NCBI GenBank assembly: GCA_963681505.1
Contig: OY811981.1
Span: 3,436,675-3,500,674, forward strand
Length of the DNA stretch: 64,000 nucleotides
From: Eunapius fragilis
Lineage: Eukaryota; Porifera; Demospongiae; Spongillida; Spongillidae
Direction: 5' to 3'
Positions 8,016 to 61,181 of this stretch are shown here, one piece after another. The notes under the pieces were generated by a model that was not told the DNA's origin, did not search any database, and saw only the letters and a list, made by a program, of their open reading frames with translations. The translations under genes were made by a program, and so were the position numbers. Every line of letters begins with the position of its first letter. Position 1 is the stretch's first letter.

Positions 8016-8131
8016 TGTGGCATAACACGTATTATTTGTGTTGTCATGGCTGTACTTGCGCATGCGCCTGATATATATTTTACGAACACTGTTACATGGT
8101 GGCAGCGGTTCTCTGAAACCCACGGTTGGAC

Positions 8132-8898
8132 ATGGCAGATATTCGGTGCAACCTCCGGAAGCGTTCGACTTCAAGAACCCCGACGACTGGACCCACTGGA
8201 AACGGCGGTTCGAACAGTTCCGTATCGCCTCGTCCCTTGACACACAGTCCGACTCTAAGCAAGTCAGTATGCTATTATATTCTATGGGCAAGGAGGCAGA
8301 AGTGGTTCTTGTGTCCACGGGTATCACGGACGAGGAGAGGAAAAGCTACAAGAAAGTAGTGGAAAAACTGGATGAGTATTTCCATGTTCGACACAATGTC
8401 ATTTTCGAGCGGGCACGCTTCAACAGATGTGACCAGCTGGAAGGTGAGTCCGGCGACCAGTACATCACGGAGCTATATTATTTGGCAGAGCGGTGTTCAT
8501 ACGGGTAGCTCACCTCTGAAATAATCCGTGACCGTCTTGTTGTCGGTATGAGGGATCTAGCCCTCTCAGAAAGACTTCAACTAAATCCGGATCTCACTTT
8601 AGAGAAAGCAAAGACCATGATCCGGCAGAGAGAGGCGATCCACACACAACAACAGGTGCTCAAGGAGGCAGAAAGCGGCTCTTCTTTCAAGGGGGAAAAC
8701 AGCTCAGTGGACTTCCTTAGGGGCCAAGGCACCAAGACAAAACCAGCAGGTGTTTCTCCTGCAAAGCCAAACAAACACCTAAGCAGTGTATCAAATGCGG
8801 GAAAGGCCAGCATCCTTGGTATACTTGCCCTGCCAAGGAATCTGTGTGTCATAAATGCAAGCAGAGAGGACACTATGGCTCATAGTGCCTATCAAAGA
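8132..8898 (+). pseudogene. gag: Retrotransposon 1 gag with zinc knuckles, broken
   Basis: Structural protein of the element. The most likely ATG is 8132 (MADIR...), but it is one base out of frame with the conserved part that begins QPPEAFDFKNPDDW. A 1-nt deletion near 8147 would explain this. An in-frame TAG at 8506-8508 splits the capsid region; the same frame then resumes with IIRDRLVVGMRDLALSER. A frameshift near 8745 moves to the zinc knuckle frame, which has CIKCGKGQHPWYTC and CHKCKQRGHYG. A second stop at 8883-8885 lies before the final Cys. So the gag cannot be made as one protein. Confidence 0.85.
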
Positions 8899-8900
8899 CA

Positions 8901-11900
8901 GTGGCGGAGTTACAACCGGATGAGAGCAACCTTGACAGTGTATTCTTAGACACACTTACACAAAACAGTCCTGAAACCTGGAGAATGAAGTTAAAGCTGG
9001 CGAATCAAACATTGGAGTTCAAAATAGACACTGGAGCTGAGGTAACAGCAATTTCGGATGTGGCTTTCAGAGCTTTTAAAGGGCTTAAACTAGACAGACC
9101 CAAGAAGATGCTGTACGGTCCTGCACGCACTCTTTTAAAGGTAATCGGTCAGTTTGAAGGGGAGCTGTTTTATCGAGGGAAAACTACCAAGCAGAATGTG
9201 TACGTAGTAAACGGACTGAGAACCAACCTGCTGGGACTACCAGCTATCCTCGCTCTGAAGTTGGTGGCAAAGCTAGAGGAAACGGTGGAAACTTCACTTC
9301 ACACTATTGTGAAAAATATCCTACACTATTCCAGGGGCTGGGGAGCATGGGTGACCCTTATGACATTCAGTTGCAACCAGAGGCACAGCCCTATGCATTG
9401 TTTACCTCCCAGAACATTCCTTTACCATTGCATCTCAAGGTCAAGCAGGAGTTGGAGCGAATGGAGTCACTAGGAATCATCTCAAAAGTAGACGAGCCAA
9501 CTCCACGGTGTGCCTGAACATTTGGTGGTTGCTCCCAAGAAGGGTGGGGCAATCCGCATATGTGTGGACTACCAACCCTTAAATCGTTACGTTTGCCGGG
9601 AGGTATACCCTCTTCCAAAAGTAGATGAAACCTTAGCACAGTTGGCAGGAGCAAAAATCTTCAGCAAACTCGATGCAAATTCCGGATTTTGGCAAATACC
9701 CTTGACTGAGAGGTCCAAACTTCTGACCACATTCATCACTCCATTTGGTCGTTACTACTTTCACAAACTTCCATTCGGGATTTGCAGTGCGCCTGAGCAC
9801 TTCCAGAAGCGAATGAGTAAAATCCTTGCAGGCCTTGAGGGGGTCCTGTGTCAGATGGACGATGTGTTAGTGTTTGGCAGGGACAAAGAGGAACATAATG
9901 CTCGCCTCATAGCGGCATTAAACAGAATCCGTGATGCTGGAGTAACTCTGAATAGGGAGAAGTGTGAGTTTGAGAAAGGGAAACTACTCTTTCTCGGGCA
10001 TGTCATTGACCAACATGGCGTCCAAGCAGACGTCTGCTATTGAAGGTCTCAGCTCACCCAGTAACATCACGGAATTGAGACGATTTCTTGGAATGGCAAA
10101 CCAAATGGGGAAGTTTTCACCTAACTTAGCACAGGTAACGCAGCCTCTTCGAGAACTCTTGAGCAAAAACCGCACCTGGCAATGGGGTTGTGCTCAAGAA
10201 GAAGCCTTTGCTCAGGTTAAAGCTGAACTTTGCAAACCAACAGTGCTTGCCTTTTATACCCCAGATGCACCAACCAAACTTTCGGCAGATGCATCATCAC
10301 ATGGGTTGGGGGCAGTATTGCTACAGAGAAGTGATGGGGAATGGAAACCTGTGGCATATGCATCCCGGTCTATTTCAGATACTGAAAAACGGTACGCACA
10401 AATCGAGAAAGAAGCACTTTCTACTGTCTGGGCGTGTGACAAGTTTGCCAGTTATGTTGTTGGACTTAAATTCCACATTGAAACTGATCACAAGCCGCTA
10501 GTTCCACTGTTAGGATCAAAGCACCTTGATACGTTACCACCACGAATTCTTCGATTTTGGTTGAGGCTAGCACGCTTCGATTTTACTATTCAGCACGTGC
10601 CTGGTAACCTATTGCGCACAGCAGATGCACTGTCTCAAGCACCAGGGCCCATCACTAAGGCTTAGAGGAAGAAGCAGAACATATCGTGGAAGTTTGCATT
10701 AAACATCTTCCAGGCAGTGAGGGGCGGTTAAAACAATATGCGGAAGCCCAGCTAGAAGATCCTGTGTGTTCAGCAGTGATGAAGCATTGTCTAGATGGAT
10801 GGCCAGAGAGACACAAGATTGAACCTGTCCTAAAGCCTTACTGGAAAGGTCAAGGAGATCTATCAGTACACAACGATTTGCTTCTTTTCCAAAAGTGTAT
10901 TGTGGTGCCAGAGTCTCTCCAGCAGGAGACACTTGCAAAACTCCACCATGGGCATCAAGGCATTGTGAGATGCAGGCTTAGAGCACAGAATTCTGTTTGG
11001 TGGCCTGACATATCCCAACGAATAAAGGATGTGATTGAACACTGCTCAGTTCCATGCCTCATCGTGAACCATTAATGCCAACAATTTTACCAGACTACCC
11101 ATGGCAGAGTGTAGCAAAGGATCTTTTTGTGCTGAATGGGGTCAATTATGTGGTCATAGTAGACTACTTTTCTAGATATCCCGAGGTTATTAAGCTCAGG
11201 TCTACTACTAGCAACACTTTGATAGACGCTGCTAAAGCGGTGTTTTCCAGGCATGGCATTCCAGAGTCAGTATGCAGTGACAATGGTCCACAGTTCTCTT
11301 TGCGTGAGTTTGCAAAATTTGCTGCGTCATATGGCTTTAAGCATACCACCAGCAGCCCCTATTTCCCCCAAAGCAACGGGCTGGCGGAGAGAACTGTTCA
11401 GACAGTGAAAAATATCCTCAAAGGGAATCAGGACCCGTACCTAGCCATTCTCACCTACCGTTCCACACAACTACCCTGGTGTGGTCTGTCAACGGCACAA
11501 CTGCTAATGGGCAGACAATTGTGCACTAACCTTCCACAAACCCTTGAACATCTGAAACCAGAATGGCCTTATTTGCTTCGATTTCAGGAGCAAGACTTGG
11601 AGTTTAATTCCCACCAAAAGTCCAATTTTGACAGGCATCACAGAGTCCACCAACTTCCAGATATTCCAGATCAGACGGAGGTGTGGATCACAACAGATAA
11701 GAGTAAGCCGACCTCTGGTATAGTGGTGGGAAAGGCAGGGGCTCCGCGGTCATATATTGTGGAAACTCAGGGTGGCTTAGCACGCCGCAATCGACACCAC
11801 CTCAACATCGTGCCTAATGTTGTTAGGCAAGGTGCAGAGGAACCACAACGACCTGACTCCTTGGAGCAGGAACCCGAACAAGTGGAGAAACCACAACAAC

Positions 11901-12043
11901 CCAATACCTACGAACAGGAGCAAGACCACCAACCACAGGAACCTCATAGAATTATTACATGGTCACAGACAGGGACAGTGGTCTGTCCCCCTGAACGATT
12001 TGGATGGAACTCAACCCTTGCAAGAAAGGGAGATGTGGCATAA
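8901..12043 (+). pseudogene. pol: Retrotransposon 1 pol (protease, RT, RNase H, integrase), broken
   Basis: Domains in order: aspartic protease with FKIDTGAEVTAISD (about 9018-9060); reverse transcriptase (9510-10043) with the catalytic QMDDVLVFG; RNase H (about 10230-10650) with LSADASSHGLGAVLL and ETDHKPLVPLL; integrase zinc region (about 10930-11060, HH then CSVPC); integrase core (11100-11480) with SDNGPQF and SNGLAERTV, giving the D, D, E triad; and a C-terminal tail. Frame changes near 9316, 9510 and 10020, a stop after RNase H (10663-10665) and a frame change near 11050 break it. The terminal TAA (12041-12043) lies inside the 3' LTR, so pol overlaps the LTR by about 10 bp. The integrase half is the best preserved piece (about 329 codons open). 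Confidence 0.9.
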
Positions 12044-12353: not shown

Positions 12354-14497
12354 TGTAATATATGACTGAAAAGGATGGAATTGTCCACAGAGTAATGCAT
12401 AGTGAGTGGGCCACCCCAATTGTACCAATTTTGAAACCAGATTAAAAGGTACGGATTTGTGGTGATTTCAAGGTCACAATTAACCCTGCCCTAGATGTGG
12501 ATACTGTAGGTATCCCTTTCCAAAACTTGAAGAACTGTTAGCAACAGTGTCTGGGGGAAAATGGTTTAGTAAATTGGACCTTATTTACAATTGGCGTTAG
12601 ATGAGAGTCCCAGAAACTTTGTACCCTTAGTACTCATCGAGAGTTGTACCAATACAGGCGTATGCCGTTTGGAATAGCATCTGCTCCAACCCTGTTTCAG
12701 AAAACAATGGATTCTGTACTGCAGGGGATCAAACATGTGGTGTGCTACATTGATGACATCCTAGTACAGGCAGTAATGAGAGTGAAACACTTAAGAAACC
12801 TGGAGCAAGTTTTCAATAGATTGAAAGAACATGGAATACGGTTGCGTAAGGATAAGTGTGTTTTTCTCTCCCACTCAGTGGATTTCTTAGGCCGATACAT
12901 CCATTGCCAAGTAAGGTAGAAGCCATGGTAAAGGCCCCTGCTCCTAGAAACATTACCGAATTGAAATCATTTCTAGGAATGGTAAACTATTGCGCCAAGT
13001 TCTTGCCAAATGTACCTGTTTCCTCTATATGCACTATTAAAGAAAGAACATGGTTGGAAATGAGACAAGGAGAGTCAGCATGCCTTTGTCCTAATAAAGA
13101 AAATGCTTAGTTCCACACAGGTTCTTAAACCTTATGACCCTAAACTACCACTACAACATGTATGTCTGGCAGCAGACACCTCAGCATATGGACTTGGAGC
13201 TGTCTTATCAGATGAGTGGCCTGATGGCAGTGAACGCCCCATAGCCTTGGCATCACGTACAGTACCTTGGCATCAGCAGAGCGTCACTATGCTCAACTTG
13301 AAAAAGAAGCATTGGCCTTAATATTTGGTATAAAGAAATTTCATCAATACCTATATGGGCGTAAGTTTACTCTTGTGACAGACCATAAACCTTTGACCAC
13401 CATACTAGGACCGAATAAGGGGATTCCAGGGGTAGCAGCATCCAGATTGCAACGTTGGGCTATGCTTTTGGCAGCATACATGTATACAGTATTGGTCTAC
13501 ACATGACAATGGAAATGCAGATGGGCTTTCACGTCTACCATTACAGGAGACGACCTGATGTGGAAGGTTTAGAGGCAAGTGTTTTCAGTGTAGAACAAAT
13601 TGAAGCACTCCCAGTTACTGCAGCTCACTTAAGGCAGGCAACACGTAGTGACCCAATATTAAGTAAGGTATTGCAGAATCTAAAGCAAGGTTACTGGCTT
13701 GATCAAAGAACTGAAGCTTTAAGCCCCTATGCCAATAAGCAGCATGAGTTGTCAATAGAGAATGACATCTTGTTATGGGGAATAAGGGTGGTGATACCTG
13801 CTAAACTTAGACAGGAGATATTGCAAGAGTTACATCATAACCATACCGGCATATCTAGAATGAAGTCATTAGCAAGGGGACATGTATGGTGGCCATCTAT
13901 AGATACATGTAAGGACATTGAGGATTGTGTGCATGGTTGTACTGCATGTCAAGAGGTAAAAACTACTGTACCTCTAGCTCCCCTACATCCTTGGGTTTGG
14001 CCAGGGAGAACATGGCAAAGAGTACATGTTGACTTGGCAGGACCAATAAATGGAAAGATGTTTATATTGTTAGTTGATGCCCATTCAAAGTGGCCTGAAG
14101 TGTTTGAGATGCCAAACACAACATCTCAGAAAACAATTGAAATTTTGTAACAGGTGGTTTCAGCATATGGATTGCAGACAATGGACCACAATTTGCGAAT
14201 TGTGATCCATTGTTAAGAATTTGCGGAGTTCATGGCTAAAAATGGAATAAAACATATCCGTAGTGCTCCATACCATCCTGCCACAAATGGCAAAGGTTTG
14301 TTCAAACATTTAAGCGAGCTATGAAGACAGGTACCACCAAAGTAAAGTAACACTGAATCAGTGATGAGGCAAACTGAAATAACAAGTACTGATCAGGATA
14401 TACAAGCTAGTAACCCAACTGCGAGTAATGAAAAAAGAGGAGTAAGAAGAAAGGAAGTGCAGTCCACTGAAGGAAAGGCTCCTCATGATCACCAGCC

Positions 14498-19085: not shown

Positions 19086-19157
19086 TCCCATGTGGTCTAG
19101 TGGTTAGGATTCAGCCCTCTCACGGCTGTGGCCGGGGTTCGATTCCCCGCATGGGAA
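19086..19157 (+). tRNA. tRNA-Glu (CTC), copy A
   Basis: Seventy-two bases fold as a cloverleaf. The acceptor TCCCATG pairs with CATGGGA, with discriminator A. The D-arm contains the A box TGGTCTAGTGG. The anticodon stem CAGCC/GGCTG closes loop CTCTCAC with anticodon CTC at 19119-19121. The T-arm GGGGTTCGATTCCCC is a perfect B box. A T-run downstream (from about 19168) can serve as the Pol III terminator. It closely resembles the standard eukaryotic tRNA-Glu, so it is likely functional. Confidence 0.96.
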
Positions 19158-41643: not shown

Positions 41644-41715
41644 TCCCATGTGGTCTAGTGGTTAGGATTCAGCCCTCTCACGGCTGTGGCCGGGGTTAGA
41701 TTCCCCGCATGGGAA
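41644..41715 (+). pseudogene. tRNA-Glu (CTC), copy B, T-loop mutated
   Basis: Identical to the copy-A tRNA except that the T-loop reads TTAGATT instead of TTCGATT. The changed base is C56, which pairs with G19 of the D-loop in nearly all tRNAs and is also a core base of the Pol III B box. Both folding and transcription should suffer, so I call it a tRNA pseudogene. A T-run follows the gene (from about 41720). Confidence 0.85.
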
Positions 41716-48200: not shown

Positions 48201-50345
48201 GTCATGTAAAAATATCAGCACATCTAGTATAGGCGGCCAGAAAATGGATTAATGAATTCGGGGCTATATACATTAATGTTATTATCTCTGCATGATTACA
48301 CGCATTACCCTGATTTTCTGTATCAGTGCAGGGTATAGAGCTCGAGGGTATATATATATATTTACACCACAGGTATACAAATTTTTTATGCATCCATAAT
48401 TGGCTGTATCTATAACAGGACGCTTCATGTGGTCTCTTTCTTGTGGAGATAGTAAATATGTCTGGTGAAGCAAAACCACATAAAGAGTTGTAAGTTGTAT
48501 CCTTGTATAGATCAATAGTATATAGCTGGTGCCAAATTATGACCGGTCTTATGTTCTATGACGTCCATGTAGGCTGGAGAGTTTATATTTTCTCGATCCA
48601 CAGTGAGATGGATCCCGCCTTCTTCCCTCCATCGTTCGCTCTCACCCAGCTTTATGGTAATGATATCAGACATGCATGGTGATCACATGCAACTATAACC
48701 ACCAGTCTAGAATGCATGTAAATCATAGCTGCTCAGAGGAAGAATAGTTCAATGGAATGGAATGTGTTGTCTGAATACAGATACAATATGATCAGTATTG
48801 AAGGTTCACAAGGAGCACTTTGAGTAGTTCAACCAAAGAACGTTGACATAAATACTGCTGTGTCCAGATTGAGGGTAGCATGCCACCAGTGATCAGGAAA
48901 GTAGATAATCTAAGATGAAATACAACAATGGTTGATAGCAAATACATCTGGCATTATTAAATGCACTGACAGTATATATGTACAATGTCTAAACCATAAA
49001 TGATGATGCACGCCCAATGCCTAAATCATTACTGGTACATAGCACCTAACCATTCTTAGTACAAAATGCCTAACCATTGCTAAATATCCGGTCTATATGA
49101 ACCCGGTACCGTTTTTAATGATTGCTTTTAGCGTGTTTTTGAAAACGTTGTATTTCCGCGCTCATATATATGTTTCTAGCCAAATTCAATACACGTATTA
49201 CCCCATCCCTCATGTACATAATTGTGTAATTTTGATGTTATAAATCCACTCCGTTGGTTATACCTGAGGCCTGATAGGTCTCGGGGGTAAAACGTATCAT
49301 AACTCCAACACCGAAAATATTTCTAACGCCAAATTTTAGTTACTGGTAGGAAAATGGTGTCCAAACAACGCTAACTTTTCGCAATACGTTTACAGCGATG
49401 GTTAAGGCGAGGCTTAGTGTGAAACATAAGTGGCAGCGGTAGACCATTTTATAAATTTACATACATGCCACGCCTCCGTTGCTACGTGACGTCACATGGG
49501 ATAAGCATGGCGACACCTTTGAATAAAAAACATCTATTCGCTCGTGATAAACAGTCCATCGTACGCGCATTCACCTATATTCGTGATGGTTGACCTTTAG
49601 TACTGGTAATAGGGTCGCGTAATTCAACTTCGCTTAAAGCCTCATCATCCAAAACTTTCTGAACCGTACTGGAAGCACACCCAATCAGTGGCGTATTTAG
49701 GGGGGGGGGGGGGGGGGGGGGCGGGGCCTCAGGGGGCTCGGACACCCTCTAGTATGAAATTCAAGCGCTTAGTTACCTGCATATGAAGCGGGTAACTAAG
49801 CGATCTCGCCCGCATACCGCACCATGCACGTACGCATTAATCAATCTAGCCACTTAGCCTATTATTAAAATCATTGATCCAACTGCACTCGGAGATGGAC
49901 ATTAGGTTTTCTAATTAGAACCGTATTACATTTACGGTATTCTTAGTGTCCAGACGAATGAAGGAGCTCATTAAAATGTGGTTTATGTTCTTAAGCTTAT
50001 TTTTATCACAAAAAGCTTGCAATAAAATACGGATAATCTTTTAAGCATTTCTACATTCATTTCTATACTAGATGAGATATATGCGCACAGTCAAGGCGTG
50101 TTGTTTATTTACCTACTAACTCCGCGCAGATCACGGTCATATTATGAGACACTCAAACGGCAACCAATTTTTCTCGAAAAAACGCCTGATAGTTGGGCAT
50201 GAAACTTACCGTTTCGTAAAGAGGAATCATTGCACATTCTATACGTGTTTAGTTTATGTCTAGACATATTTTCTGGTGAGAGAACAAAACGGTTACTTTT
50301 CGTTTGTTTAGTCATGAATAAATCGAAGTCACGTGCTTTGATTAC
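45300..50345. other. Tail of copy B and unique spacer
   Basis: 45.3-49.06 kb is the non-coding tail shared with 26.87-30.70 kb; B has about 170 bp of extra CTCTCC-rich sequence near 46825-47000. 49.06-50.34 kb is unique. A CAGTGGCGTATTTAGG followed by a 22-nt G-run at 49686 looks like the left end of a hAT-type non-autonomous element, but no right end was found. CGCTTAGTTACC and GGTAACTAAGCG form a perfect hairpin at 49766-49802. No coding sequence recognised. Confidence 0.65.
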
Positions 50346-53300
50346 ATGTACCGTACGGCAATGGATATTCCACGATGCCAAGTACACCGTTTGTGCAGGG
50401 TCTGTGGACACAGATTGTTGAAAAAAACCTCTGCTGGTTATCAAGAGACAACATATAGCTGTGCTAGTTTCTCAGTGGAACTCAGGACATGTTTTGAAAT
50501 AGACATCAGCAATGACACAGCTGACTTTCCCTCCAATCTTGTAGACTTGCTTTGTCCAGGATTCAAGAAGCTTCTGAGAAGAAGATTCCATACAAGTGTA
50601 TGGTAAAGCCATACAATTGGTCCCTAAACTGTCCCAGTACATGCAAGGTAAATATATTCACATGACCTCATAAGTTTAATCATTGCACATTACACATGCA
50701 CACACTAATACATGTACACAATACACATATTTCAGGAAACCATACATGTACACTCATGGATGCACATAAAAGAGCCGCGGAAACCAGGGCAACAACCAGG
50801 TGTCACACCAAGTGCTCTGCTTCATCATATAAACACCATTGCACCTCAAAAGATCATGGGTGGTAACAATGACCCTGCATTAGCACCAACACAGGTCATT
50901 TCAGTCATAGACGTACTCACATGTCCTGTGTGCAAAGGAATGTTGTCACAGCCACTGAAGTTGCATTGCAATGTTGTAGTGTGTGCTAAGTGCGTTGTTG
51001 ATGCCATTACAACATCAGCCAGTACTCGGTGTCCATGCTGTGAGGATGCTGTTAACTTGTTACCAAGTTCTGTGCAACCAGCTTCAGACATAATACAACA
51101 TCTTCAATGTGATGTGATAATATTGTGTGAAACATGCAATAGGGATGTACGAGCAGGTGACTATGACTCACACGAGTGCCAAAGGTCTGGAGTTCTTGAT
51201 TAGCAAATGGCTTGTAAGGTGATTAGAAGAATCCTGTCTGAAAGTACAAGTGACAACATTTTACAAATCAAGACAGGAGGAACTGTAAGTTATAAAAACG
51301 AAGTTGGTAATATTTAATGCCTATTTCTCATCTTATACAGCCACTGACTTTAGTGCGAGTGACAAAGGCTCGTTTATCTCAAAGCGAGCAAAACTGTAGC
51401 ACGAAAACTCTTAAGCGAAGAGTCAGTGAGCTTCAGGCAGTGAGGAGCCTTCTGTCACCAGAGAGACCTGAACAAGTCCTTGTGGAGGAAATCAGAGCCT
51501 TGGGAAGTGATGAAAAAAAGAAGATACTGGTTTATGCAGGTATTACTCTAGATATAGATGCAAAAACCTGACTTGCCATGAAAGCAGCACTATGTATGCC
51601 TTGGAACCAACTTCGGACATTAAGAAGGTAATTTTTCACTTGTGTGAAAATAAAATAAAGCCCACTTTTCTATGCTCAGATGGTTGTCACATTCGGGTGT
51701 ACAAATAGAAAGTGAAACGAGGCAACGTCTCATCGCAAAAGACATCCTGGGAGAGAATTTTGAAGCAGAAGTTGCACCATTCTGCTTCTCACGTCCGTCT
51801 TGTGATGATGAGATAAGAGCAGCTGCCTATGCGTATACCCCAAGCCTCATACAGAAAGTGACCAACCTTATAGATGAAAATGAAAGGTAATGTATATTAT
51901 ATTTTTAGTAACCTGATCAGTGCAGTTTCTCTAAACAGTTCAGGTGCTCTGATGTGGCATTATGGAGTAATTCCAGAGACTGAAATATGGGTCAAACTCG
52001 GAGGTGATAAAGGCGGTGGTGCATTTAAAATGAACTTTCAAATTGTAAATACCAACTCACCAAACTCAATCCACAGTACATGTGTGTTTGCATGCTTTGA
52101 GGCACAGGACACCATAGCAAACTTTCACATAGTCCTTGATAGATACAAGGATGAAGTGACAAATTTAGGCATGTCTCAATGGAAGTGAGTCATACGAAGT
52201 ATAAAATATTGTTCACTCCAATATTGCCAATTGCTACTGTCACAGAGGTTACAATATCAGAGTCTTTCTATCAGGGGATTACGAGTTTTTATGTGCATTA
52301 TATGGCCATTCAGGTGCAAGTGGTAAGCAAGCTGAATTTTACAAATATGGGAAATACACAACATGTACCGTAACATAGGGAAACAGCCATGTTTATGGTG
52401 TTTGGTGACACTTGATGTAGAAAGAAGTTGCAGTTTGAGAGTCCCATTTCCCAAGCAAACCCTTCAGTCAATTTTTGATGACTACAAACGCTTTGTAGCA
52501 TCTGAAAGGGATATAAGGAAGGTGAAAATTTTTAATACCTGCAAGGGAGAAACCTTGTTTGCCATTCCATTGACCCAGGTAAATATTCACATATGTTATG
52601 ATTAGTCACTTCATTTCCATATCTTTTTAAAGGTCTGCCTTCCAGGACTACATATATCCATGGCATATTCTACAAACTGTACTCCTTACTGAGGAGGAAT
52701 GCCACTTCTTGGATTTAAGGCTCGCCTTGCAGTTATCTACAAATACAGGGCTAACACCTGCATCCTATGAAGAGTATGTAACTGCACTGAGGGAGCTGAC
52801 TGTACTCAAGGAGCAACTGGAAGTGTTACATCATGAACACAGCAGTCTGAAGGATCTCTTCAACTACTCTGCAATGATTGTGGGAGAAATCAGTCCTTTT
52901 CTCTCTAGTCTAGCAGAGGAAGACATAAGCTACAGCAGTAAAATAGCAGAATTGGTTAGTTACTGGATATTAGGCAACACATGTTATCCTCATGTCAATG
53001 GATGTAGGAAAAAAAGATCAGGTATGTGAATCTGAAGTTGGAAAAGACGCTTGCAGTGTCTGAGGGACCATTTGTGAAGGGGGTAGAAGCTGTACTCCAA
53101 TCTCTCAATGTACAACGCCAGCAGTACCATGGTGGAGCATTTATTGGTAATCATGTACACAAGGTATTGCAGGTAAGTATTTTTAAAAGGTAGCACTTTT
53201 GGCTTAATGCAACTTTATATTTTCTCACATAGGCTCAACACACACATGCACTATGCACATCGCTTGTATGTACAGCACAAAAGTACTCACCGCAACTGAT

Positions 53301-53778
53301 TGGAAAAGCAAATGCCCTTTGTGATAAATACAAGCGGGCATTTGCACTTTTTTCTCAGTGCCACATACTCTATAATAAGAATTTGGTATCTAAAGAAGAA
53401 AAGACAGCACTCAGTACGTGAACTGTACTTCAAACCTTCTTTTTGACATATTTCATTGCATGTAATGCTGTAAAAGAATTCTTTAGCTATTTCGACAGTG
53501 CTTTCCCTGGAACAAATTGGACAATTAAAATGCATATACTGGAAATACACATCATTGAGTGGATGAGTACATCCAACGCTGGATTTGGGCTAATGGGAGA
53601 ACAAGGCACTGAAGCAATACATGCCCATTTCAACAAGCTGTATAGGACCTACGGCTGTATGGCAAACAAAGTGCAGAGGCTGAAATGAATTATGCAAGAA
53701 CATCATTTGAGTGTGCGTCCAACTCTCAATGCCCTGAAGCCTGAAATAAGAACGAGAAAAAGAAAACGCAAAGACTAG
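50346..53778 (+). pseudogene. RAG1-N-terminus-like zinc modules plus RING, fused to a transposase-like body (decayed, about 11 exons)
   Basis: Exons by phase: 50346-50647, 50736-51284, 51341-51627, 51680-51886, about 51939-52184, 52246-52322, 52379-52578, 52633-52955, 53008-53172, 53233-53413, 53477-53778, all GT-AG. The N-terminus has LCRVCGHRLL ... CFEIDISND ... CPSTCK, ordered like the RAG1 amino-terminal zinc region. Exon 2 has a RING-like CPVCKGML ... CAKCVVDAI ... CPCC and then LCETCNRDVRAGDYDSHEC, like the RAG1 RING plus adjacent finger. The body has HYGVIPETEIWVKLGGDKGG, FLSGDYEFLCALYGHSGASG, KQPCLWC, VCLPGLHIS, YHGGAFIGNHVHK and GLMGEQGTEAIHAHFNKLYR, the last resembling the Glu-bearing end of an RNase H-fold transposase. 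Breaks: frameshifts near 50580 and 52670, stops TAG 51201, TGA 51569, TGA 53686. No TIRs found. Confidence 0.6.
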
Positions 53779-53780
53779 CC

Positions 53781-54020
53781 TTAAATTGTTAAGATACTCA
53801 TAGCATTGATTTCATTTAACAACATCGGATGCTTACGATACGGATAGTACATGCACTGAATATTCATCCGTGAATCAACAAGACCACGCTCCACCATGTT
53901 AAAATAACTGCCATATTCAGAGCCTTGGTACGTCTCACAGAAAATATGTCTAGTAACAGAGATAGCCAGAATACGTAGAGACAGCACTCTTGTATACACT
54001 GATATCATTTTATAGACCAC
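53781..54020 (-). other. Unassigned minus-strand open frame
   Basis: An open frame of about 79 codons on the minus strand (for example RHIFCETYQGSEYGSYFNM) between two transposase relics. Protein-like composition, no family recognised; it could be an exon of an unrelated gene or chance. Confidence 0.2.
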
Positions 54021-54143
54021 TTGTCAGGCAAAAAAAAGAAAAAGTTATTTCGAAGATGATGACTCCAAATGGAGCACTGCTCAATATCATGGCGTACGTT
54101 AACATAAACAACATAACGTTGGTATGTATGTAGTCCTCCAAGG

Positions 54144-56170
54144 ATGCCTAATCCATATGTTCAACTGTATTTACCTTTCCTTGAACGGATTGCACAAGAT
54201 AACCCACATTCCACAGGTGCTATAATGAGGCCCCACTTAATCGCTCTACCGCCAAATATGGGGCGAGACCTAATGTCCACTTTTTTCAATGAAAAGAAAC
54301 CCCCCTTGGCGAAGCGGACAAGTTCATCCATCCTTTCTTTTTTCACACAAACTCGCGATCGAGCAACAACATCGGATCAGCTAAATGAGTTACATCAACC
54401 ACAGGTACAGGCATGCACAATTGACTAAAATACGGTGTCTCTTTACCTTTTCAGACTATAACAATTTCATTTTAAAAATACTATACTAGTTGGGCTCTGC
54501 AGTTGAGGCGAACCAGGGTCCAAGTCATGCAACTAGCCTCGAATCCCTCGATGACAGCATTGGTCCTCCATTAGAAAAGCAATTTCAGTGTCTACTCCAC
54601 ATTCGATGATGTAGCAAGTCTTGAGGGGTCTAGAAATATCAGCGACGAAGGCAAATATCACTTGCTTGTCAACCACTTCAAGCCAGATGCTGATTACACT
54701 TTTCCAAGTGTTCTAATGGACGTTCCTTTCATCATAAGTGGCTCCAAAAATATCCTATCATGGGTATGATCCAGGAGTTCTCGTCAATCATCCTATAACC
54801 AATTTTTAAAAAGCATTGGAGGTATTCAGAAATCATGCAAACATGGGTCATCACAAAGACGCTGTAGTTAGAGCTGAGGGGTTCCTTAACACGATGATGT
54901 ACAAACAGCCAGACATTCGTCACACTCTGAATGAGGCAATGGATGAGAGAATCAAGAAGAATCGACTGAAGCTAACTTCAATCTTTGAAACGGTACTGTT
55001 TTGTGGCAGAAACAACATTGCTCTGCATGGCCACAGGGACAACGCTACTGACGTAGAAAAGGATACCTACACTTCTGAAAACCCATCCCATGGGAATTTC
55101 AGAGCTCTATTGCAGTTTAGAGTGCAAGCTGGAGACACCATCCTTGCTGATCACATAGCCACAGCTGCTCGGAATGCTACATACACATCACCTGGCATTC
55201 AAAATAAGATTATAGAAGTCCTTGGGGACCAGATCAGGCTACAGATAATCACTGAAGTAAAATTTGCTCAGTGGTATTCTGTAATAGCAGATGAAGTAAC
55301 TGATGCTGCGAACAAGGAACAACTGAGCCTGGTCTTGAGATATGTAGATCCTGAAAGTGATTATGTTAGGGAAGACCTAGTACGTTTCTTTGAGTGTGAC
55401 ACTGGGATCACTGGTTGTGATCTGGCTGGCAAAATCACAAGCTCCCTTGTAGCCTATGGTTTGGATCCTACCAACATCAGAGGTCAGGCTTATGATGGAG
55501 CAGGTAACATGGCAGGCTCAGTTAATGGTGCAGCAGCTCTGATTACAGCACAGTACCCACTTGCACTATATCTTCACTGCACCTCACACTGTCTTAACTT
55601 AGCTGTGGTGAATTCTGTGCAGGTAACCAGTGTTCGAAATATGATGGGTGTTGTGGGCAGAGTGTATCAATTCTTTGATGCTCACCCTAAGCGACAACGT
55701 GCTTTAGAAGAAGCAATAATGACGACCCAACCAGATTCAGCTGTACTTAACGTGAAAGATCTTTGTCGTACTAGATGGGTTCAGCAAATTGATTCATTAC
55801 AAGTATTTACGTATCTCCACCCATCAACTGTAACTTGCACGGAAAGAATCTGTGATGATGGTGCAAGGTTATGGTCAACCGACTCACTCACTGATGCTAG
55901 GGGTCTTCAGTTAGCCATCACAACTACAGATTTTATCAGTGGTTTAGTGATAACGAACTCATGCCTAAAGTACTTGCAAGCCTGACATAAAATTTGCAAG
56001 CTGAGACCAAAGATATCGTTGCTGCAGTAAAGGAGATAGATAGCATAATATCTACACTCCAAGATGTCAGAGTTAATATCAGTACCTACCATGCAAGCTG
56101 GTACAGTGTAGTAGAAAAAATGTGTTCAGATGTGAGCACAGAACCATCTACACCGAGAAGGTGTGGATGA
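54144..56170 (+). pseudogene. hAT-superfamily transposase, decayed
   Basis: First exon 54144-54404 (MPNPYVQLYLPFLERIAQ..., SILSFFTQTRDR, donor CCACAG|GTACAG). The body has KYHLLVNHFKPDADYTFP (about 54650-54700). A 389-codon open stretch (54816-55985) follows with VIADEVTDAANKEQLSLVLR, CRG-like IRGQAYDGAGNMAGSVNGAA, LHCTSHCLNLAVV and LCRTRWVQQID, all hallmarks of hAT transposases of the THAP12/ZMYM-like group. The first two catalytic Asp positions are present. The segment that normally holds the TTF-type zinc finger, between the Pro-rich motif and EVFRNHANMGHH, is missing. After 55985 the frame breaks (DIVAAVKEIDSIISTLQDVR is still readable) and the C-terminal dimerisation region with the third catalytic residue is absent. 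Non-functional. Confidence 0.8.
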
Positions 56171-58970: not shown

Positions 58971-61181
58971 TTGTGCAAAATCAATAATGAACCCATTCAA
59001 TTGCAGGTGTATATCGATGGAGTACTGGTCACAATGGAGCTAGACACAGGAGCTGCTGTATCTATTGTTTCAGAAGCAACTTTTCGGCGCCTCTGGTCAG
59101 GAAGGGTCTTAGAGAGGTCAGGGATTCGATTGTGCACTTATTCTGGTGAGTCTTTATGAGTGATTGGGACATGGGAAGCAGAAGTGAGGTACAAGGGCCA
59201 AATAGATAAGCTGCCAGTAATTGTGTTTGAGGGAGCAGGACCGTCACTTTTGTGTAGAGATTGGCTACAGCGCTTTAGGATTGATTGGAAGTCTGTGTTG
59301 GTTATACAGAATGATGCTTCATTACAAAAGGTATTGAAGAAGTATGAAATGGTGTTTAATGAAGGGCTAGGTACAATGTAAGGCAATGAAGCAAAATTAA
59401 AGAAAATGCAGTACCTAAATTTTGCAAAGCACGACCGGTACCATATGCCATTAAAGAAAAGATTGAGGAAGAACTAAATAAACAAGTTCAAGAGGGTATA
59501 TTACAACCAGTTGAACTGACTGAATGGGCAGCACCAATAGTCCCTGTGGTTAAGCCTGATCAATCTATTAGAATATGTGGTGACTTCCGGCTAACTGTAA
59601 ACCAGGCTTTAGAGACTGATAGGTATCCACTGCCAAAAATTGAAGATATATTAGCTTCATTGGCATGGGGGGAAAAGTTTACCAAGTTAGATTTGAGTAA
59701 AGCATATCTGCAGATTCCAATTGATGAGGCATCCAGAAAATGTGTGGTAATTAATACACATAAAGAGTTATACCAATATACCAGGATGCCATTTGGAGTA
59801 TCGTCAGCTCTTAGTATATTTCAGAGGATTATGGAGAGTCTATTGCAGGGGATCCCAAAGGTGATCGTGTATATCGATGACATCTTAATAACTGGCGGTA
59901 CTGACAAAGAACATCAGGAGATACAGGAAAAAGTTCTGCCTAAATTAAAAGAAGCTGGAATTCACCTCAAAAGAGATAAATGCTTCTTTTTGCAGGAGTC
60001 AGTTGTGTATTTGGGATACAAAATTGATAAAAATGGTATTCATCCTTTGACAGAAAAGGTTGAGGCAGTAAAGAATGCACCAGAGCCTACAGAATATGAC
60101 AGAGTTAAAATCTTATTTGGGCCTCCTGACATACTACTCTCGGTTTCTTCCACGTATGGCAACTGTGCTGGCACCGTTATACAGGCTGTTGCAGTCAAAG
60201 ATCCCATGAAAATGGACACAGAAGGAGAAAATGTCCTTTGAGAACTCAAAGAATTTGTTATTGTCTTCCAAGGTACTTTGTACATTATGACCCAATAAGG
60301 AATTGATTTTGGCATGTGATGCTTCATCTTATGGTGCTGGGGCTGTACTGTCCCATAAAATGTCAGATGGTACAGAACGATCCATTGCATTTGCTTCTCG
60401 TACACTATCTAATGCAGAAAAAAACTATTCACAACTTGAAAAGGAGGGGCTTGCCTGCATATTTGGGGTAAAGCAGTTTCATCTTTATTTATATGGAAGA
60501 GATTTTACACTTGTAACTGATCACAAACCATTGTTGCAGCTATTTTACCCCCAAAGGGGTATCCCCATGCAGGTGTCAGGGAGAATTCTAAGGTGGATTA
60601 TGACCCTAGCAGTGTACAAGTACAAGTTGTTTTTCAGAAAATCTGAAGAGCATAGTAATGCAGATGCATTGAGCCGGTTACCAGTGGACGGGAAGCAAAT
60701 TGAAGAGGAAGAAGAGACATCCTCAGAATTGGTCCTACTTGTTGAAAGTCTGAAGGACTCTCCTGTAGACTGTTCACAAGTGAAACATTGGACTAAGAGA
60801 GATCCAATCTTGTCTCAAGTGTTGCAGTATGTATTGGCAGGGTGGCCACAACATCTGCCCTCAGATGCACCACAGACGCTGTTTCCATTTTGGCAGCGCC
60901 AATTGGAGCTATCTACTCATGACGGTTGTATCCTTTGGGGAAATTGGGTGGTTGTTCCAGAAAAGGGAAGAAACTATGTATTGCAGGAGTTGCATGGGGG
61001 TCATCCGGGAATATCCCGAATGAAAACCTTGAATGAAGATGTGGGTGACAGGCTTGAGATCGAGGAAGAAATAGAACAAGAAGCACGCCCAACAGTGATA
61101 GTACAACTTGCAGTGGACCAAAGACGATATCCCAGCAGGGACAGAGGGCAGACCGAGCACTACCAAGCCGGGTTTTCTTAA
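58971..61181 (+). pseudogene. pol: Retrotransposon 3 pol (protease, RT, RNase H; integrase core deleted)
   Basis: Protease with MELDTGAAVSIVSEATF (about 59034-59085). RT (about 59400-60110) with YTRMPFGVSSA and VYIDDILITGG, open for 231 codons from 59546. RNase H with ILACDASSYGAGAVLSHK (60303 on), VTDHKPLLQLF and HSNADALSRLP. Integrase zinc region start LHGGHPGISRMKTLN (about 60990-61035), after which the sequence jumps to the element's acidic C-terminal tail with RRYPSRDRG. The DDE core is absent. Breaks: stop after the protease (59157-59159), stop near 59380 and a frame change near 60100. RT and RNase H are the best preserved in the window. Confidence 0.88.

Follow-up and report, generated by a model that had tools for sequence, protein, structure and literature searches.

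The window analysed here, a stretch of 64,000 nucleotides from the sponge Eunapius fragilis (contig OY811981.1, positions 3,436,675 to 3,500,674), very probably harbors a dead Chapaev-type cut-and-paste DNA transposon whose gene encodes a RAG1-like transposase. At window positions 50361-53778 on the + strand, a single gene of 11 exons runs from a start codon at 50361 to a stop at 53776-53778, and its exon borders follow GT..AG save for one acceptor lost ahead of exon 11. A preliminary description of this DNA had placed a RAG1-type zinc region, a RING and a C-C-H-C finger in RAG1 order within one gene. This was confirmed on the sequence, and the quoted motifs and zinc modules lie where they had been located, in the same order. 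The damage noted there is real as well, but instead of five lesions the recount gives about seven. Exon 1 carries a frameshift, exon 8 has two more of a single base each, exons 2, 3 and 11 each hold a stop, and the AG of the splice acceptor ahead of exon 11 is gone. The gene is composed as follows.

50361..50647, + strand: exon 1, RAG1 N-terminal-type (Chapa) zinc domain, CRVCG..FEID..C, with an internal frameshift (family profile against RAG1)
50736..51284, + strand: exon 2, RING, C-C-H-C finger and linker; one stop
50922..51041, + strand: RING finger (RAG1 alignment; Pfam RING matches all under the curated cut-off)
51126..51179, + strand: C-C-H-C finger matching the RAG1 finger after the RING (HMMER alignment to RAG1)
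51341..51627, + strand: exon 3, linker (TGGTP) and beginning of the core; one stop
51680..51886, + strand: exon 4, core
51939..52184, + strand: exon 5, DUF1280 match and D at 52006-52008, proposed as RAG1 D600 only from the order of the motifs
52246..52322, + strand: exon 6, GDYEF, D at 52277-52279 (RAG1 D708)
52379..52578, + strand: exon 7, CLWC at 52390-52401 (RAG1 C727/C730)
52633..52954, + strand: exon 8, LH motif at 52648-52653 (RAG1 H795); two frameshifts
53008..53172, + strand: exon 9, YHGGAFIGNHVHK, a family-conserved block
53233..53413, + strand: exon 10, core
53463..53778, + strand: exon 11, H(4)H at 53533-53550 (RAG1 H937/H942), E at 53611-53613 (RAG1 E962), basic tail and stop; acceptor lost, one internal stop

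Because at least 68 DNA matches to the query were found in the genome (219 Mb, 24 contigs) and the nearest database protein, from the freshwater sponge Ephydatia muelleri, is 66% identical over 99% coverage, the gene is more than a chance assembly of frames.

The N-terminal half resembles RAG1 well beyond a generic RING. A family profile built from 32 relatives matched full-length mouse RAG1 over 102-379 with an E value of 1.1e-29, zinc domain, RING and finger following in colinear order, and matched the isolated RAG1 N-terminal chain 21wb with an E value of 2.8e-13; the single frame of locus L039 also matched 21wb (E 6.5e-7). These profile and L039 matches rule out similarity limited to a generic RING, an outcome that the preliminary description had named beforehand as fatal to its proposal. 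Zebrafish RAG1 was the top PDB match of the window protein alone (E 5.6e-6), the alignment spanning RING, finger and linker; TRIM5 was a near second (E 1.9e-5). The Pfam domain RAG1_imp_bd was above cut-off in 8 of 19 relatives (P0011, P0015, P0016, P0020, P0022, P0025, P0026 and P0028) and below it in P0003, P0004, P0013 and P0014. It was not listed for P0001, P0002, P0005-P0007, P0009 and P0010, several of which have no N-terminus, and gave no match on the broken exon 1 of the window. The Chapa domain of P0026 (residues 32-69) also matches zf-AD weakly, at an E value of 0.0022 and below cut-off, a hint of possible kinship between the ZAD domain and the zinc domain at the RAG1 N-terminus.

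The body of the protein carries the CLWC, LH, HILEIH and D/D/E motifs. The preliminary description had taken it for a non-RAG transposase body, a view that is not supported: the structural model of the body of P0026, a relative of the window protein, has the RAG1/Transib core fold with RAG1 as the best fold match, and D708, C727, C730, H795, H937, H942 and E962 of RAG1 fall in register (MAFFT). In the 32-protein alignment, counted where the column is present, the motif residues are almost invariant (D524, the candidate for RAG1 D600, 30/30; D594 27/28; C613 and C616 25/25; L and H of the LH motif 28/29 each; H932, H937, E954 and E958 30/30 each). Identity of the core to RAG1 is 15-22%, a level at which the alignment is uncertain. 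Pfam DUF1280 (PF06918) overlaps the region of the first catalytic aspartate (window 51874-52188) and is also found in P0003-P0032; this domain, whose function is unknown, is probably a piece of Chapaev-type transposases.

The gene lies within a transposon. At least eight full-query matches at 92-100% identity were found, the window's own among them, and 15 stretches were fetched for comparison, one of which (L023) is the window itself. Many fetched copies match the window from 49892 to about 54303 by blastn, and others are truncated or interrupted. The corresponding features of the window are listed below.

49892..54303, + strand: transposon copy, extent common to other copies, with outermost bases unrecognisable in the window (blastn, 12 kb of window against fetched copies)
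49895..49906, + strand: ATGGACATTAGG, piece of the left inverted repeat (sequence; the same 12-mer matches inverted in copy L012)
54269..54280, - strand: counterpart piece in the right inverted repeat, mismatched at one base in the window copy (sequence)
50260..50275, + strand: subterminal inverted repeat of 16 bp, perfect, left arm
53938..53953, - strand: right arm of the same 16-bp repeat

The 16-bp repeat sits about 350-390 bp inside either end; of the 15 loci checked, 11 have both arms exact, the window's own among them. Copies with both ends located are 4453-4858 bp long, start with CACGGCTGTTT and end with AAACACCCGTG. All five distinct copies of this kind have CAC..GTG termini, which are not preserved in the window copy, and all five are flanked by a perfect 4-bp target duplication. 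The exact left terminus occurs at 20 genomic places, while the reversed control occurs at none. The terminal repeats anticipated around a RAG1-like gene were thus present in the sister copies. A single site out of 4453 distinguishes L011 from L013, while L012 departs from these two at 9 and 10 sites. As frame lesions are present in L012 and L013, such near-identical copies were probably mobilised by transposase from another copy. In L019, L020, L022 and others, query position 1070 is joined straight to 1714. Pieces of this derivative subfamily are 83-90% identical in most rows, and the shared internal deletion probably marks a non-autonomous lineage.

The modules keep together in the genomic clusters of matches. 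The matches fall into 42 clusters, based on 133 of 153 matches (17 weaker rows and 3 unlisted ones left out): 24 hold N-terminus, RING and core, 10 RING and core, 7 core only, and 1 N-terminus and RING. All 38 clusters with at least two pieces are colinear on one strand; the four single-piece clusters are so trivially. Paralogues with the modules split among separate genes, the other outcome that would have counted against the preliminary description, are thus rejected for these clusters.

If it works as RAG1 and Transib do, the transposase would act as a dimer that holds the two inverted repeats, cuts next to CAC with its D-D-E triad and joins the ends to the target at a 4-bp stagger. Its RING part would be a ubiquitin ligase with a regulatory role.

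The element is classed as Chapaev by its hallmarks. Chapaev transposons are characterized by CAC..GTG termini, target duplications of 3-4 bp and the motifs C(2)C, LH and H(4)H (PMC4079192), and C(2)C and H(3-4)H are described as common to RAG1, Transib and Chapaev (PMC12730594). Chapaev belongs to the CMC megafamily. Section 6 of PMC4411706 describes two Chapaev subgroups with a Chapa domain, part of the RAG1 N-terminus, followed by a RING; a RAG1-type N-terminus and RING fused to a Transib-type core is thereby on record for Chapaev. The sponge copies show the CAC..GTG ends, a 4-bp duplication within the 3-4 bp range, the C(2)C, LH, H(4)H and DDE residues, the Chapa-RING order and a core distant from RAG1. 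The likeness is drawn by description, not by sequence, and the hosts named in that paper are lancelet and sea anemone. As the Chapaev fusion has already been published, the sponge element is a further case and its novelty lies in the host. No sponge Chapaev with a RAG1-like N-terminus appeared in titles and beginnings of abstracts, a scope that leaves out full texts, Repbase and subscription papers; one candidate report (PMC4298943) was discarded since 'sponge' there, in the part seen, stems from the transposon name Spongebob.

The RAG1-N-like transposon of a sea slug mentioned in the preliminary description pointed in the right direction. N-RAG-TP of Aplysia is a transposon with RAG1 N-terminal-like sequence, wholly so according to PMC8355894, whereas the sponge element continues into a full core. 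N-RAG-TP itself may be a Chapaev with an unrecognised core.

Several results weigh against the reading as a Chapaev with a RAG1-like transposase. When P0001 was compared with PDB alone, TRIM5 came top (E 1.6e-6; best RAG1 0.0036), and for P0011 alone the top match was TRAF6 (E 5.6e-6; best RAG1 1.2e-4). The structural model is of P0026, not of the window protein, and P0026 and P0001 share 27% identity. RAG1 D600 was left unaligned in both MAFFT runs, its counterpart being assigned by motif order only. By hhalign, the family against one RAG1 core reached a probability of 3.4% (E 0.013), and the second HMMER stretch to RAG1 scored 4.5 bits (E 68). Within the window's own subfamily no copy was seen to be fully intact, and the Chapaev placement rests on hallmarks, with no named Chapaev protein in the comparison and no tree.

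An N-terminus joined to an unrelated, non-RAG transposase body, whose likeness to RAG1 would reflect a generic RNase H fold, could draw on the facts that the similarity of body to RAG1 is not significant on its own and that Pfam calls part of the region DUF1280. Against the fold of the P0026 model and the residues in register, this is highly improbable and largely refuted. A true RAG-like (RAGL/ProtoRAG) or Transib element minus RAG2 would explain the full RAG1 architecture with N-terminus and RING, as in amphioxus and mollusc RAG1L (PMC7204232), and RAG1 being the best fold match of the modelled body. Vertebrate RAG1 and the RAGL proteins of amphioxus and molluscs indeed have the Chapa-RING-finger-core order, the core fold and the seven residues in register. 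However, the target duplication is 4 bp in five of five copies, whereas 5 bp is reported for Transib and RAG (PMC8355894), and the core is no more than 15-22% identical to RAG1. A further difference from RAG1 and RAGL lies in the long coiled-coil helices of the P0026 model (residues ~716-798). Transib, as HzTransib, is described without N-terminal domains (PMC4411706 section 6; PMC7204232). The gene takes up most of the 4453-bp element, with some 460 and 520 bp remaining on its two sides, and inspection of reading frames revealed no second gene and no convergent RAG2-like gene or RAG2 partner, with no kelch profile search made. Because of the 4-bp duplication and the lack of a visible second gene, a RAGL element is very unlikely. 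A genome search with PF12940 (RAG1) is uninformative, as neither it nor its control gave a match.

In Ephydatia muelleri and Sycon ciliatum, relatives carry annotations as predicted proteins, which might suggest a sponge host gene domesticated from a transposon rather than a mobile element. The many copies with flanking duplications, the near-identical recent insertions and the lesions of the window copy speak against it; for the window copy the lesions refute domestication, and the chance that it applies is close to nil.

The Chapaev-type family is not confined to the window's subfamily. The closest relative of the window protein is P0001, the third protein search for relatives listed 7 proteins, and Sycon ciliatum contributes P0027; the scan found no relatives in viral_contigs. 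Other subfamilies share the start CACGG.TGTTT (L036-L038, L040, L041, L042 and L044/L045), and L036-L038 have about 42% protein identity to P0001. RAG1_imp_bd occurs at 50 places in the genome, all above cut-off, eight of which were cut out for inspection (L039-L046). N-terminus and then core frames were found in L039, its sister L040, L041 and the identical pair L044/L045, while L042, L043 and L046 are truncated or rearranged, L043 being known only via its match to L046. A second gene upstream in L039 was dropped because homology with L040 starts only past that gene. L044 and L045 (G000:C1:16133846-16137133 and 16178430-16181717) lie some 45 kb from each other, one inverted relative to the other, and are 100% identical across 3288 bp, flanks included; either host DNA was recently duplicated in inverted form or the assembly produced the pair. 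The genome thus holds several subfamilies of RAG1-shaped transposases, some in near-identical copies.

Elsewhere in the window, an open frame of 391 amino acids at 54810-55985, with a DUF4371 domain (E 1.8e-19), adjoins the element. We take it to be part of a hAT-like transposase, probably. Frames resembling Ty3/gypsy-type reverse transcriptase, RNase H and integrase by eye lie at 8026-12043, 13419-14150 and 59390-61181. Two tRNA-Glu (CTC) genes are located at 19086-19157 and 41644-41715, and neighbouring reading frames near 4.3-8 kb are repeated near 35-39 kb, which suggests a segmental duplication inside the window.

Two views exist of the RING-bearing front end of RAG1. It may derive from an ancient fused transposase, the shared architecture being an ancient fusion according to Kapitonov and Koonin (PMC4411706), or from uptake out of another transposon, the idea attached to N-RAG-TP. 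Since both halves stand in one gene in several sponge subfamilies, they can be compared within the same proteins. Among the 16 relatives that have both halves, conservation is a little lower in the Chapa region than in the core. Distances were then computed by FastTree with RAG1 added to 14 relatives, and the mean distance of RAG1 to the 14 was divided by that of two Ephydatia proteins to the 14. This ratio was 0.87 for Chapa (0.61-1.31 in 30 bootstraps), 1.12 for RING-finger (0.70-1.61) and 2.04 for the core (1.61-2.34). Relative to the distance among the 14, the values were 1.67 (1.27-2.34), 2.06 (1.32-3.04) and 3.37 (2.67-3.79), respectively. Identity of RAG1 to the 14 was 28.9% for Chapa, 24.8% for RING-finger and 19.0% for the core, to be read with the identity floor given by zinc ligands and with the 19-27% that unrelated RINGs reach in structural rows. 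In its N-terminus RAG1 is thus about as distant as the most divergent members of the family, and in its core twice as far. RAG1 is relatively nearer in the N-terminus than in the core, clearly for Chapa but only just for RING-finger, where the ranges meet those of the core or overlap with them; the comparison uses 96-98 short cysteine-rich columns near saturation and a core alignment uncertain at 15-22%, and the RAG1 core may have evolved faster.

This pattern favours separate histories of the two RAG1 halves; it suggests them without proving them. A possible though doubtful scenario is that the N-terminal module (Chapa and RING) was transferred between the RAG-like lineage and a Chapaev-type transposon once their cores had split, the sponge Chapaevs keeping relatives of the donor. 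The data do not decide between the two views. With an approximately twofold mismatch between halves of the same proteins, the sponge family provides a way to probe how RAG1 acquired its front end.
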